From the NCBI GenBank assembly GCA_947501355.1, contig CANMVA010000001.1, positions 248,001-312,000 of the forward strand: a stretch of DNA of 64,000 nucleotides, in the 5' to 3' direction. Of this stretch, positions 8,715-51,994 are shown piece after piece. Source of the DNA: an uncultured Paracoccaceae bacterium (GTDB lineage Bacteria; Pseudomonadota; Alphaproteobacteria; Rhodobacterales; Rhodobacteraceae). The notes under the pieces are model-generated. The model was not told where the DNA came from. It made no database searches and was given only the letters and a program-made list of their open reading frames with translations. Every line of letters begins with the position of its first letter. Position 1 is the first letter of the stretch. The position numbers and the translations under genes were made by a program.

Positions 8715-9182
8715 ATGGGCAAACTTCTTCCAATTCTGATGCTGGCCCTTGGCGCAGGTGCGGGCATTTTTGGCGGCAAACTCATGCTTCCTGAGCCCGA
8801 ACCGGTTGCGGTTGAAGAAGGGGCAGAACCGGTCGAGGCCATGCCCGAAGAGCCCAGCGATGTCGAATATGTCAAACTGAACAACCAGTTTGTGGTTCCT
8901 GTGATTGCGGAAGGTCGGGTCATTTCCCTCGTCGTTCTGGCACTGACAGTCGAGATCAAGCTGGGTGAACGCGAAGCCGTCTATGCGCGCGAGCCACGTC
9001 TGCGGGATGCGTTTTTGCAGGTCATGTTTGACCATGCCAATATCGGCGGGTTCGATGGCGCGTTTACCAATTCATCGTCGATGGACACGTTGCGCCACGC
9101 GTTGAAAATCGTCGCGGTGGACAGCCTCGGCCCGACCGTCAAAGACGTTCTGATCACCGATATCGTCCGCCAGGACAGCTAA
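8715..9182 (+). CDS. FliL-family flagellar basal-body-associated protein (first of two)
   Basis: N-terminal TM, acidic linker, FliL-like domain (YVKLNNQFVVPVIAEGRV...LRDAFLQVMFDHANIGGFDG). Confidence 0.72.
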   Translation: MGKLLPILMLALGAGAGIFGGKLMLPEPEPVAVEEGAEPVEAMPEEPSDVEYVKLNNQFVVPVIAEGRVISLVVLALTVEIKLGEREAVYAREPRLRDAFLQVMFDHANIGGFDGAFTNSSSMDTLRHALKIVAVDSLGPTVKDVLITDIVRQDS

Positions 9183-14282: not shown

Positions 14283-16352
14283 CTATGGAGAGGCAAAACT
14301 CCCAAGAGCCCCCTCAAGCAGCGCAGATTTCTGTTGGGTCAATTCGATCAACTCGCGGTCCTTCGACAGGACCAGTTCATCTGTCGCGTCGGGCAGAGGC
14401 GCGGTGAAGATATTCGTTTGGTCTGCAGTCCAATGTTGGGCAATCAGCGCCGGGTCTTGGGCCAGAAGTGCCGCGCGCAAGGCGGGCTCCGCCAGGTCGG
14501 CCTCCGAAAACGCCTGAGCGGCGGACCCGTAGGATTTCCGTTTGAGATGAATTTTCGCACGTAGCTCTTCCACAGCGGGGCCGGGTTGACCCATGAGTTC
14601 GGTTAATGCGTCATCAAATCGTCCGCTCGCCAGAAAAATTTCCGCGCGTTGAAGACGGGTTTCGGGCTCCATATTGTTTGGCAGCCATTCAAACGCAATA
14701 TCATGAAATCCAAGATCAGCCATCCGACGCGCCATCGCGAGCTGCAAGTCAGAGTTGAGCGTCGGAACAGACCCTGACCCGTACCGCAGGAATTGCATAT
14801 CCGAGCCGTTTGCGACCAGAAGCGCGTAGGCGCCTGTTTGCAGTTCGGTGTCATTGGTCATGACAGCTTGGTCCGCGAAAGAGCTTCCGAAATCTCCTGC
14901 AAGCGCCGCCGCCATCAGCTTTGCGCGCTCAAGACGCGCGCCGATCTCGGTCCCCTGAGACTCGAACGCATACGCGTCGATGAGATCAGAGATATCCGCA
15001 GGCAGCGGTGCCTGATTGGCAAATTGAAGGGTCACATACGCGACAAGCGCCTCTGGTGATTTAGCATCCGAACTACGAGCAAACTCAAGAAGCTCTTTGC
15101 TTTGCGAAATCGAGGCAAGAGACGTCACCAGCGGTGCAGGTGTCGTATCGTTCCCCTCTGAGCCCAAAAGATACCTCAGTTGCGCAGCCATATCCGCTGC
15201 CAAAGCGGGCCGTTCGGCTATATATGCGTTTTCGATCAATTTCGGCGCAATGACGCGTGCAAGATCAGGCGGCAATTGCGGGAAAGCCCGCAGCGCCTGT
15301 TTGCCCAGAAGATCGGATATAGGTTCGGACGGGCTTGCCAGAATGCGCCAGATTGCAGATGTGCCCGGGCAGTCTTCGGGCGTATCCGGCCAAGGCTGCT
15401 GCATCTCCGATTGCTCGATAAGAGCTGTCAGCTGTTTGAGGACCATTGCCTCGTCGGACGGATTTGCCGAAATTAGCTGATCTGCTTCCAGTGTAAAACC
15501 GTGCGCCAGATAGTGCCGTGCCAGCGCCAGTTCGCGGCGGTGGGTGATCTTGTCTGTGGCGTCCGCCAGTTCGGATCTGAGCTGTCCGAGGCCGGTCGTG
15601 AAATCATTACCGTGGCTCCAATCAGACGTGGGGAGCCAACCCGGCGGGATACACTCCACCGCGGGCTGCGCGGCCTCCTCAAAGGCGGGATCAATGAAAT
15701 CAAGCGCTGTTGCCGTTGAAAGGATTCCACTTTCAACGGATGGATTGCGCGGCGTCATTGGTGTGACTTGATCGACCGTCGTCGACAACACATCCTCGCG
15801 TGGCGAGGCCAGGCCCTGACTGGCGGCGCGTCCCAATTGTTCAATCAAAAGCGACTCAGCCACTGCGACGGCCTCGGCCAGATCCCTCTCTTGTTCAAGA
15901 TGGTCCAGATCGACGGGATCAGTCTTCACCGCGGATTTCGACATGGCCGCTTGCAAGCCTGCACGCTGCCGCGGCGTCAGGGCCGACCGGGTCAGACCAA
16001 GGTCCGCACTGGCACCATCATTGATGTCGACAACGACCATGTCTGGTTCCAGAAAGAAGGCATTGGCATGGCACTCGCAATCCACCTGAAGAAAGATGCC
16101 TTCGTCACTGGCAATCAGGTCGGAAATACGGGCCTTCGACATGCGTTGAAAAACCTCAGATGTGTCAAATGTGACATCAGGCTTCTGTAGAAGATAGCCG
16201 GTGGCGGTTTTGAGTACGGCCCAGTCATCCGGCCTTTGTCCGTAAAACACGACACGAGAGAAGGCGTCGTGGTCAGCCGCCTTGATCCTGAGAGGCTCAG
16301 CCAGAGCCGCCAGTGGCAGCGCCATGAAAACGAAAGCCCAAGCCAGTTTCAT
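14283..16352 (-). CDS. large exported helical-repeat protein of unknown function, coupled to motA
   Basis: 689 aa; signal peptide MKLAWAFVFMALPLAALA; N-terminal beta-rich segment (AMIN-like by eye), then a long alpha-helical TPR-like region; 4-nt overlap with motA. Confidence 0.75.
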   Translation of the reverse strand: MKLAWAFVFMALPLAALAEPLRIKAADHDAFSRVVFYGQRPDDWAVLKTATGYLLQKPDVTFDTSEVFQRMSKARISDLIASDEGIFLQVDCECHANAFFLEPDMVVVDINDGASADLGLTRSALTPRQRAGLQAAMSKSAVKTDPVDLDHLEQERDLAEAVAVAESLLIEQLGRAASQGLASPREDVLSTTVDQVTPMTPRNPSVESGILSTATALDFIDPAFEEAAQPAVECIPPGWLPTSDWSHGNDFTTGLGQLRSELADATDKITHRRELALARHYLAHGFTLEADQLISANPSDEAMVLKQLTALIEQSEMQQPWPDTPEDCPGTSAIWRILASPSEPISDLLGKQALRAFPQLPPDLARVIAPKLIENAYIAERPALAADMAAQLRYLLGSEGNDTTPAPLVTSLASISQSKELLEFARSSDAKSPEALVAYVTLQFANQAPLPADISDLIDAYAFESQGTEIGARLERAKLMAAALAGDFGSSFADQAVMTNDTELQTGAYALLVANGSDMQFLRYGSGSVPTLNSDLQLAMARRMADLGFHDIAFEWLPNNMEPETRLQRAEIFLASGRFDDALTELMGQPGPAVEELRAKIHLKRKSYGSAAQAFSEADLAEPALRAALLAQDPALIAQHWTADQTNIFTAPLPDATDELVLSKDRELIELTQQKSALLEGALGSFASP

Positions 16353-17218
16353 GCGCTCTCTTTCTTGATGACGGAGAGCGCTTCATCCAGTTCGGTGAAT
16401 GACGGGCGATGATGGTGAGGCATGTTCTGACGGCCTACTTCGATGCAGATGTTCGTTGCGTGGTTGTGCAGGTTCGCGACAAGAACTTCGCGGATGAGCA
16501 GGTAGAAATGGCTGTCTTCCTCGATCACGGATTTAACCTTTCCCGAGAACGGCCCGACGAGGCCATAGGCCAGAAACACACCCAGAAATGTTCCGACAAG
16601 CGCACCGCCGATCAACTTGCCCAGGATCTCCGGTGGTTGATCAATAGAGCCCATCGTCTTGATCACACCAAGAACAGCGGCGACGATTCCCAATGCAGGA
16701 AGCGCATCGGCCACCGTCTGAAGCGCATGACTGGAATGCAAAGAATGATGCAGCGTGGCATCCATTCGCTTCTCCAGCACCTCTTCCACCTGATGAGGGT
16801 CGTCGTAGTTCATCGAAGCGGATCGCAACGTGTCGCAAATCAGATCAACCGCCTCGTGGTCTTTCTGAATCTTGGGATACTTTCCGAAAATCGACGATGC
16901 GGCGGGGTCTTCGATATGCTCCTCAAGGCCAACCGGGTTAGACCGTGCGAGCCGGATCAGCTCGAACAAAAGACAGAGCAGATCGCGATAGTCGTCAGCC
17001 TTCCAGATCGGGCCCTTGAAGACCTTGCCCAGGTCTTTGACCGTCTTTTTTGCCGCCGCAGAGTCGTTTGACAGAAGAAACGCGCCAAGTGCTGCGCCGC
17101 CGATCATGGTGAACTCGTAGGGGAGCGATTTCAGGATGATCCCCATCTTGCCGCCAGCAGCCAGATAGCCGCCGAAAACCATGACAAAAATTACCACGAT
17201 GCCAATAATGCTGATCAC
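16349..17218 (-). CDS. motA: flagellar motor stator protein MotA
   Basis: GVIKTMGSIDQPPEILGKLIGGALVGTFLGVFLAYGLVGPFSGKVK. Confidence 0.96.
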   Translation of the reverse strand: MISIIGIVVIFVMVFGGYLAAGGKMGIILKSLPYEFTMIGGAALGAFLLSNDSAAAKKTVKDLGKVFKGPIWKADDYRDLLCLLFELIRLARSNPVGLEEHIEDPAASSIFGKYPKIQKDHEAVDLICDTLRSASMNYDDPHQVEEVLEKRMDATLHHSLHSSHALQTVADALPALGIVAAVLGVIKTMGSIDQPPEILGKLIGGALVGTFLGVFLAYGLVGPFSGKVKSVIEEDSHFYLLIREVLVANLHNHATNICIEVGRQNMPHHHRPSFTELDEALSVIKKESA

Positions 17219-17274: not shown

Positions 17275-17841
17275 CTATTCCTTGGGGGCTTTCGCATTGC
17301 GACCCGCCAGCAAAACGCTGATCGCATAGGCTTTTTCCGGCGACAGGCCAGACAGAACAGCCGCCGCACTGTCGGGCTTCATGGCGCCCAGGAACCCTGC
17401 TGCAAATTCAGGTGTCATCTGCTCGAAGACGGCTGCTGCGTCTTTTGGTTTCATCTGCTGATAGACCCGGGTCAGAAGCGCGATATCGTCGCTTGAGGCC
17501 GTTTCCGACAAGGCGATGGTCGCGGCTAATCTGGCCTCAGCGGCGTCCAGCGCGTCGATCATCGCGGCCAACTCAGCCTCGGCGATGTCGAGCATCGCAA
17601 GACGCTCTTCCAGTTTTTGCTCACGATCTTTCAGCACGGCATCACGCTCCAGTAGGGCTGCGAGAAGCGCGTCCTCCTCCGGGTTTCCGGCAGTCGGCTT
17701 GGTCGGGGCCTCGTCGGCTTTGTCTGAAACAGCCGCGATAGCGGGGCCGACGACCTCCACCCCCCGGATCAACGCCGAGCCAAGCAGCAGGCAACATAAG
17801 ATCAGCAGAACCCGCGGGCGGGATTTACGTTTTCCAGCCAT
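17275..17841 (-). CDS. MotE/MgtE-N-like flagellar accessory protein
   Basis: N-terminal TM, coiled coil, C-terminal repeats LLTRVYQQMKPKDAAAVFEQMTPEFAAGFLGAMKPDSAAAVLSGLSPEKAYAIS typical of MgtE intracellular N domains. Confidence 0.7.
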   Translation of the reverse strand: MAGKRKSRPRVLLILCCLLLGSALIRGVEVVGPAIAAVSDKADEAPTKPTAGNPEEDALLAALLERDAVLKDREQKLEERLAMLDIAEAELAAMIDALDAAEARLAATIALSETASSDDIALLTRVYQQMKPKDAAAVFEQMTPEFAAGFLGAMKPDSAAAVLSGLSPEKAYAISVLLAGRNAKAPKE

Positions 17842-17844
17842 ATC

Positions 17845-18228
17845 CTAAGCCCCGCTTCTTTCGCGATGCCGCACAAAAGCGGTCGGGGGCGGCGCGGTTT
17901 CGTTCACCGGGGCTGGCGGCACCACAGGTTCGGGCGCGGGCTGTTCCGGCAGATCATGCAAGGATGCCAGCAGCAGTTCCAACCGGGTCACAGCAGTCTC
18001 TGCACGTGTGGTTGCCGCCTCCAGATCAGCCGCGGATTTCTGCGCGGCGGCTTCTGCCTGACTAAGCGTCCTGGTCATGTCATCGACCTGCGCGGACATC
18101 ACGGCGACAGCCCCGCCTACGCCCTTCTCAAGGTCGTTAAACTTGTTCAGCTTGCGCGCCAGAACGAGGCAGTAAAGCGTGGCGCCCAGCGCGCCCGCGA
18201 TCAGTAAAGCATCCGCAATGAGGGTCAT
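17845..18228 (-). CDS. small membrane-anchored coiled-coil protein of unknown function
   Basis: 127 aa; N-terminal TM, coiled coil, Pro-rich tail; within the fliL-motA operon. Confidence 0.6.
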   Translation of the reverse strand: MTLIADALLIAGALGATLYCLVLARKLNKFNDLEKGVGGAVAVMSAQVDDMTRTLSQAEAAAQKSAADLEAATTRAETAVTRLELLLASLHDLPEQPAPEPVVPPAPVNETAPPPTAFVRHRERSGA

Positions 18229-18238
18229 TCTACCTCTC

Positions 18239-18736
18239 CTAGTTCAGCACAAATTCCATGATAAGCAGGTCACGTACACGGTCATGGCCGACGACGACCT
18301 GCACCCGGCGCAGCATCTGCGCACGAAGCCCGACAAGCGCCGATGTCTCGCTCAGCAACGCGACATCCACAGCACGCAGGTAATTGTTCAAAACGTCGAC
18401 AACGCGGGGCATGAGTTGGCTCACATCGTCCGCAGCGGACCCTTCGACCTCAAGCTCCGCACGGAACTTCAGATACCGATTCGTCCCGTTCTCGTTGAGC
18501 GAAATGACCAAGGGATCAACGGGCACAAAAGCAATATCAGGCAACGCCTCAAGCGGCGTATCCGCGGCATGGGTCACCGCATCCTTCTGGCCAAACAGAA
18601 GGCCCATTTGCACTGCAAAATAACCGCCTGCACCGCCCAGGAGCGCCAGAACCAGCCCGATGACGATCGGCATCTTCAGTGATTTTTTCGGCGTGACCTC
18701 TGCAATATCTGCATCAGCGGTTTCGGCGTCAGCCAT
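18239..18736 (-). CDS. fliL: flagellar basal-body-associated protein FliL
   Basis: MPIVIGLVLALLGGAGGYFAVQMGLLFG TM followed by a FliL domain (FVPVDPLVISLNENGTNRYLKFRAELEVE). Confidence 0.9.
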   Translation of the reverse strand: MADAETADADIAEVTPKKSLKMPIVIGLVLALLGGAGGYFAVQMGLLFGQKDAVTHAADTPLEALPDIAFVPVDPLVISLNENGTNRYLKFRAELEVEGSAADDVSQLMPRVVDVLNNYLRAVDVALLSETSALVGLRAQMLRRVQVVVGHDRVRDLLIMEFVLN

Positions 18737-18780: not shown

Positions 18781-18797
18781 CTAACCGATTGTTAAGG
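18781..18797. promoter_or_regulatory. CtrA-type box between divergent fliL and fliF
   Basis: CTAA-CCGATTG-TTAAGG; matches TTAA-N7-TTAA with one mismatch. Confidence 0.5.
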
Positions 18798-51977: not shown

Positions 51978-51994
51978 TTAACGGGCTGTTAACC
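51978..51994. promoter_or_regulatory. CtrA box upstream of the PAS/DivL-like gene
   Basis: exact TTAA-CGGGCTG-TTAACC. Confidence 0.65.

Follow-up and report, generated by a model that had tools for sequence, protein, structure and literature searches.

A MotK (CP4) family protein encoded behind motA in a Rhodobacterales fla1-type flagellar cluster, very probably a periplasmic scaffold for stators

The window analyzed here, a 64,000-nt stretch of DNA from an uncultured Paracoccaceae bacterium (GenBank assembly GCA_947501355.1, contig CANMVA010000001.1, positions 248,001 to 312,000), carries a flagellar gene cluster that reads, in the sense of transcription, fliL, pflI-like, motE-like, motA, motK, sltF, flhA, fliR and flhB. 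The relevant features are listed below, with the corresponding CP designations of Phaeobacter inhibens in parentheses.

18781..18795, no strand: possible CtrA box, CTAA-N7-TTAA with one mismatch, upstream of fliL (weak when taken alone)
18239..18736, minus: fliL, first gene of the operon (PF03748, 50.9 bits)
17845..18228, minus: pflI (CP2), assigned by position; its match to DUF6468 (PF20072) is weak (18.8 bits, below the cut-off of 26.9)
17275..17841, minus: motE (CP3), COG3334-type E-ring protein (MgtE_N, PF03448, 31 bits), in the position of Cereibacter sphaeroides motE
16349..17218, minus: motA, stator A subunit (TIGR03818, 359 bits)
16349..16352, minus: ATGA overlap of 4 nt between the motA stop and the motK start
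14283..16352, minus: motK (CP4), AMIN plus TPR/alpha-solenoid motor protein, putatively exported to the periplasm (689 aa, ATG start)
15993..16352, minus: N-terminal 120 residues of MotK, with apparent signal peptide (1-18), AMIN-fold domain (~21-112) and C92-x-C94
13488..14210, minus: sltF, lytic transglycosylase, downstream of motK (PF01464, 27.2 bits), placed as in P. inhibens

An earlier note, made from the letters of this DNA alone, had described an exported-looking ORF of 689 aa that starts 4 nt inside the motA stop, and both the ORF (14283-16352, minus) and the overlap (...GAGCGCATGAAACTG...) were borne out. The N-terminus of the window protein, MKLAWAFVFMALPLAALA^EPL, reads by eye as a classical Sec signal, and the structural model places a helix there. 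Searches of Pfam and NCBIfam with window MotK returned zero families at E<=1 and thus no recognised catalytic domain, in agreement with the earlier remark that no catalytic motif was visible. Across the window as a whole there are 9 near matches to CtrA-like boxes versus 3 expected, together with one perfect TTAA-N7-TTAA box at 51978-51992. In addition to the operon's fliL, the plus strand encodes a second, divergent FliL-like protein at 8715-9182 (PF03748, 25.4 bits); two fliL genes are also present in P. inhibens.

To place this protein among known flagellar factors, we compared the locus with two published systems. The first is MotK (RSWS8N_12065, UniProt Q3IY86) of the C. sphaeroides Fla2 flagellum (Velez-Gonzalez et al. 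2024, PLoS One, PMC10954123). As described there, MotK is a periplasmic protein of 652 aa with a Sec signal, an AMIN-like N-terminus of eight strands and a TPR-like remainder, encoded in the order fliL-pflI-motE-motA-motK. The motK mutant is flagellated but paralysed and can be complemented; it has filaments, and its hook protein level is like that of the parent. The same account reports that MotK binds MotE and MotB2, that its polar localisation requires MotA2/MotB2, and that MotK-sfGFP stays polar and co-localises with the hook. The window protein shares the place behind motA, the eight-stranded AMIN part and the TPR-like rest, is of similar length (652 versus 689 aa), and has what looks like a Sec signal as well. 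C. sphaeroides is another genus and the likeness is one to a published description, but matched in this way, by gene order and architecture, the window protein is the orthologue of Fla2 MotK.

The second system is the fla1 flagellum of P. inhibens (Tomasch et al. 2025, mSystems, PMC12363192), in which six insertions in CP4 (PGA1_c35690) were non-motile, complementation restored motility, and the function was called 'enigmatic'. The gene order given there, CP2-CP3-motA-CP4-sltF-flhA, is that of the window and becomes fliL-pflI-motE-motA-motK-sltF-flhA-fliR-flhB in MotK nomenclature. Judged from identical gene order and from homology, the latter by way of the gene at this position in Phaeobacter italicus, the window protein is also the orthologue of CP4. 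PMC12363192 leaves CP4 without an assigned function and describes CP1-4 as found exclusively in Rhodobacterales fla1 and absent outside the order; neither 'MotE' nor 'MotK' occurs in its text. Because gene order and homology agree, our comparison points to CP2 being PflI, CP3 being MotE and CP4 being MotK, a correspondence apparently not drawn in that paper. This link would join two literatures: one and the same module would already have both a transposon set and a biochemical model. The designation "undescribed" in the earlier note therefore had to be dropped, as the family had already been published both as MotK (2024) and as CP4 (2025), with complemented null mutants in each case; the window gene itself adds one well-supported, ordinary member. 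With regard to MotE, the two studies are at odds: in P. inhibens, CP3 mutants secreted only FlgH and zero flagella were detected (PMC12363192), whereas C. sphaeroides motE mutants are described as flagellated but paralysed (PMC10954123). Within PMC12363192, moreover, the late-acting proteins are given as CP1 and CP3 in the discussion but would be CP1 and CP4 according to the results.

We then assessed how consistently motK accompanies motA in 151 Rhodobacteraceae genomes, with fla1-type motA defined by at least 61% identity to window MotA. A family profile found motK in 102 of the 103 genomes with fla1-type motA and in 0 of 8 having only another motA type, so that chance is excluded. A lack of co-occurrence with motA was one of the outcomes that the earlier note had named beforehand as fatal to its reading, and on this point the reading stood. 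Moreover, motK lies within 200 nt of motA in 100 of these 102 genomes; in the remaining cases the pair wraps around the ends of a circular contig (G275) or the matched parts are separated by 212 nt (G251). The sole exception, G025, carries an unrelated 235-aa ORF between motA and flhA (L055:9626-10333), and its whole genome gave no MotK match. The MotE and MotA of G025 are divergent (30% and 61%). Plasmids yielded zero MotK matches.

At the sequence level, the family diverges quickly, with ~18-28% identity between genera for MotK versus 61-83% for MotA; full-length alignment was possible across 26 genomes, and blastp links practically every pair of aligned sequences. A search with a 4-sequence query gave 78 loci, almost all of them with titles that name Rhodobacterales, including P. 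italicus and two further Phaeobacter; the order of genes in these loci is that of the window. The P. italicus locus (L117) has the order fliL-pflI-motE-motA-motK-sltF-flhA-fliR-flhB as in the window, and its MotK matches window MotK at 26% over 527 positions (E=3e-23) and, in the N-terminal segment, at 32% over 117 positions (E=9e-13). An in-frame ATGA/GTGA overlap of motA and motK is present in 65 of 77 named loci, and a 4-nt overlap was seen in 19 of 20 loci of another, earlier set. In addition, C234 and C328 are invariant in the 26 sequences and C92-x-C94 is present in 18 of 21; from this pattern, these cysteines are likely to form disulphides, on which we found no discussion in the portions of the literature consulted. 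Two loci titled Nocardioides marinus DP1N28-1 (L077) and Flavobacteriia MAG (L144) contain Rhodobacterales-type fla1 clusters and are probably mislabelled or contaminated.

To examine the architecture, we modelled window MotK with AlphaFold from a 26-sequence alignment (mean pLDDT 79.7, pTM 0.41). The model contains eight beta-strands (21-112), a linker that includes a helix (149-178) around a conserved RAAxQGL motif, and an alpha-solenoid spanning ~251-650 (helices 251-638), which bears out the AMIN-like N-terminal beta region and helical repeats read earlier from the letters. TPR_19 was detected in 4 of 26 family members, and a sequence search of the PDB with MotK gave weak TPR-type matches only. 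When the N-terminal domain was folded alone (pLDDT 89), its best superpositions were on PilQ B2 (TM 0.60, 3.8 A) and AmiC (TM 0.53, 4.1 A); small heat-shock proteins had slightly better E values, yet with rmsd mostly near 11 A. Independently of structure, the N-terminal part of the MotK profile matches Amidase_3+AMIN proteins. On the basis of these profile matches and the superposition, the eight-stranded domain is an AMIN domain. Comparison of the whole model with 350,542 PDB chains using Foldseek returned as best match 9hmf_K, from the Campylobacter jejuni motor scaffold (E=4.7e-6), with generic TPR proteins next at E ~1e-4; the whole-model TM-scores are low (0.14) because solenoids bend. 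Chain K of 9hmf is probably PflA, the length of 773 fitting mature PflA, and the modelled match would then support, though not prove, a PflA-like architecture. In T-ring proteins, MotX carries Sel1 repeats and MotY has an OmpA domain. Since both OmpA and Sel1 were absent at E<=1 in Pfam, membership of the MotX/MotY family was ruled out, and the T-ring likeness proposed in the earlier note is at most an analogy, the best fold match being the Campylobacter scaffold.

Several known systems resemble this arrangement to differing degrees. PflA, the proximal-disk spoke of C. jejuni, consists of a beta-sandwich, a linker and a TPR superhelix (PMC12222027, PMC11870540); the modelled window MotK shares this AMIN-like beta-sandwich, linker and superhelix, and PflA likewise neighbours an E-ring protein (FlgY, with an MgtE_N fold) and holds stators. 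Unlike MotK, PflA works with a PflB rim in a Campylobacterota motor with extra disks, and the similarity is structural, with none shown in sequence. Caulobacter crescentus CC_2058 is, by description, an AMIN plus TPR protein encoded beside PflI-MotE, and in PMC10954123 the similarity of MotK to the Caulobacter protein was found by structure only. MotC of Sinorhizobium meliloti is a periplasmic TPR protein that needs MotE, and a 2026 review treats MotC and MotK as divergent homologues; unlike window MotK, MotC reportedly lacks AMIN and is encoded behind motB rather than behind motA. A MotC gene behind motB was not found in 20 sampled loci.

Taken together, we consider it highly probable that the window gene is the motK of a vertically inherited fla1-type Rhodobacterales flagellum and that its product is a periplasmic spoke or scaffold for stators, which is consistent with the earlier proposal of a periplasmic stator factor with a MotE-like partner. 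The sequence family, gene order, co-occurrence and AMIN-plus-solenoid architecture come from the present analysis; the periplasmic location, MotE/MotB binding, MotAB-dependent polar localisation and paralysed null mutant come from its published relative. In the proposed mechanism, MotK would be exported via Sec, and its AMIN end would most likely anchor it to peptidoglycan or to a partner in the scaffold, a role that PflA likewise gives to its AMIN end. The TPR solenoid would reach toward the rotor like a spoke, contacting both the E-ring protein MotE and the periplasmic portion of MotB, so as to recruit and hold, or open, MotA5B2 stator units. A cell lacking MotK would accordingly build a flagellum unable to turn, and the presumed translational coupling to motA would match the amount of MotK to that of the stator. 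Our literature search brought up no cryo-ET study of a fla1-type motor from Rhodobacterales.

A different account, which we regard as possible but rather unlikely, is that MotK is a stator activator that binds MotB transiently together with MotE, unplugging the proton channel or loading stators, and is no lasting part of the motor. PMC10954123 offers material for both views: MotK foci are gone without MotA/MotB, the authors leave recruitment versus activation open, and isolated Fla2 basal bodies show no extra protein, but purification usually strips stators and their associates, and MotK-sfGFP persists at the pole with the hook. The architecture and predicted fold, which resemble the structural spoke PflA, also argue against a transient role. 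It is far less probable that MotK/CP4 acts mainly at the assembly or export stage, with paralysis a secondary effect. Loss of CP4 in P. inhibens does lower the number of flagellar proteins in the exoproteome, a counterpoint to pure paralysis, and chaperone-like roles are proposed for some CPs in the discussion of that paper; however, FliC, FlgK and FlgE are still secreted by the CP4 mutant (PMC12363192), and the filaments and parent-like hook protein of the C. sphaeroides mutant likewise speak against such a role. Finally, AMIN and TPR are common modules and MotK is poorly conserved in sequence, as would suit a generic envelope protein that merely happens to lie in the cluster, but we give this reading almost no credence, because motK accompanies fla1 motA and lies next to it almost without exception, and because null mutants of relatives are non-motile (PMC12363192, PMC10954123).

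We explored whether MotK relatives exist beyond Rhodobacterales by running a profile of 93 MotK sequences on 40 PflI loci, 39 of which have MotE. A MotK-like ORF was found in 35 of the 39 PflI-MotE loci, and in 34 of 38 when the one Rhodobacteraceae locus (L171) is set aside and other alphaproteobacterial families are left (best E 1e-39). These ORFs are mostly ~980-1355 aa long, and many have two matches to the AMIN part; they differ from window motK in being longer, in often having two AMIN-like regions, and in lying elsewhere than behind motA. Generic cross-matching among TPR proteins was considered and rejected: only one large ORF per locus matches, even at E<=10, the AMIN part matches alone in most of these ORFs, and the off-locus matches, where checked, proved to be either additional large MotK-like ORFs or proteins with an AMIN domain, among them several amidases. 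Hence, as far as profile matching can tell, the MotK/CP4 family is not limited to Rhodobacterales, contrary to PMC12363192. Feng and co-workers had grouped MotC, MotK and CC_2058 with PflA on structure, and described PflA and PflB as not conserved in sequence. What is new here, by the same profile evidence, is a MotK family at the sequence level within Alphaproteobacteria, by which the structural resemblance among MotK, CC_2058 and PflA would become a traceable family.

The class-wide relatives also direct attention to a paired module outside Rhodobacterales. Of the 34 loci, 21 have two tandem short genes with MotB-type membrane segments immediately ahead of the MotK-like gene, as in the following examples (plus 18 further loci).

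L182:6215-7637: MotB-like gene pair
L177:6440-7806: MotB-like gene pair
L153:7364-8679: MotB-like gene pair

The second gene has an OmpA domain in 2 of 3 examples scanned and retains the proton-channel Asp in every copy with a readable segment; this constancy partly reflects how the copies were chosen, since an Asp-containing motif was used to pick the initial set, but copies found later by profile also have the Asp where readable. In nearly all cases the first gene is without the proton-binding Asp, L165 being a clear exception. The second gene overlaps the start of the MotK-like gene by 4 nt in 10 of 15 loci examined. Our literature searches found no description of the pair. It is an even call whether MotK represents a shortened branch, in Rhodobacterales, of an Alphaproteobacteria-wide family of spokes resembling PflA, with TPR and either one or two AMIN domains, which accompanies PflI and MotE and is coupled, in many lineages, to the MotB-like pair as a dedicated, undescribed stator or anchor module. 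If so, the pair would dock on the MotE/MotK scaffold beside canonical MotA/MotB. A further, longer MotB is encoded elsewhere in several of the genomes that carry the pair.
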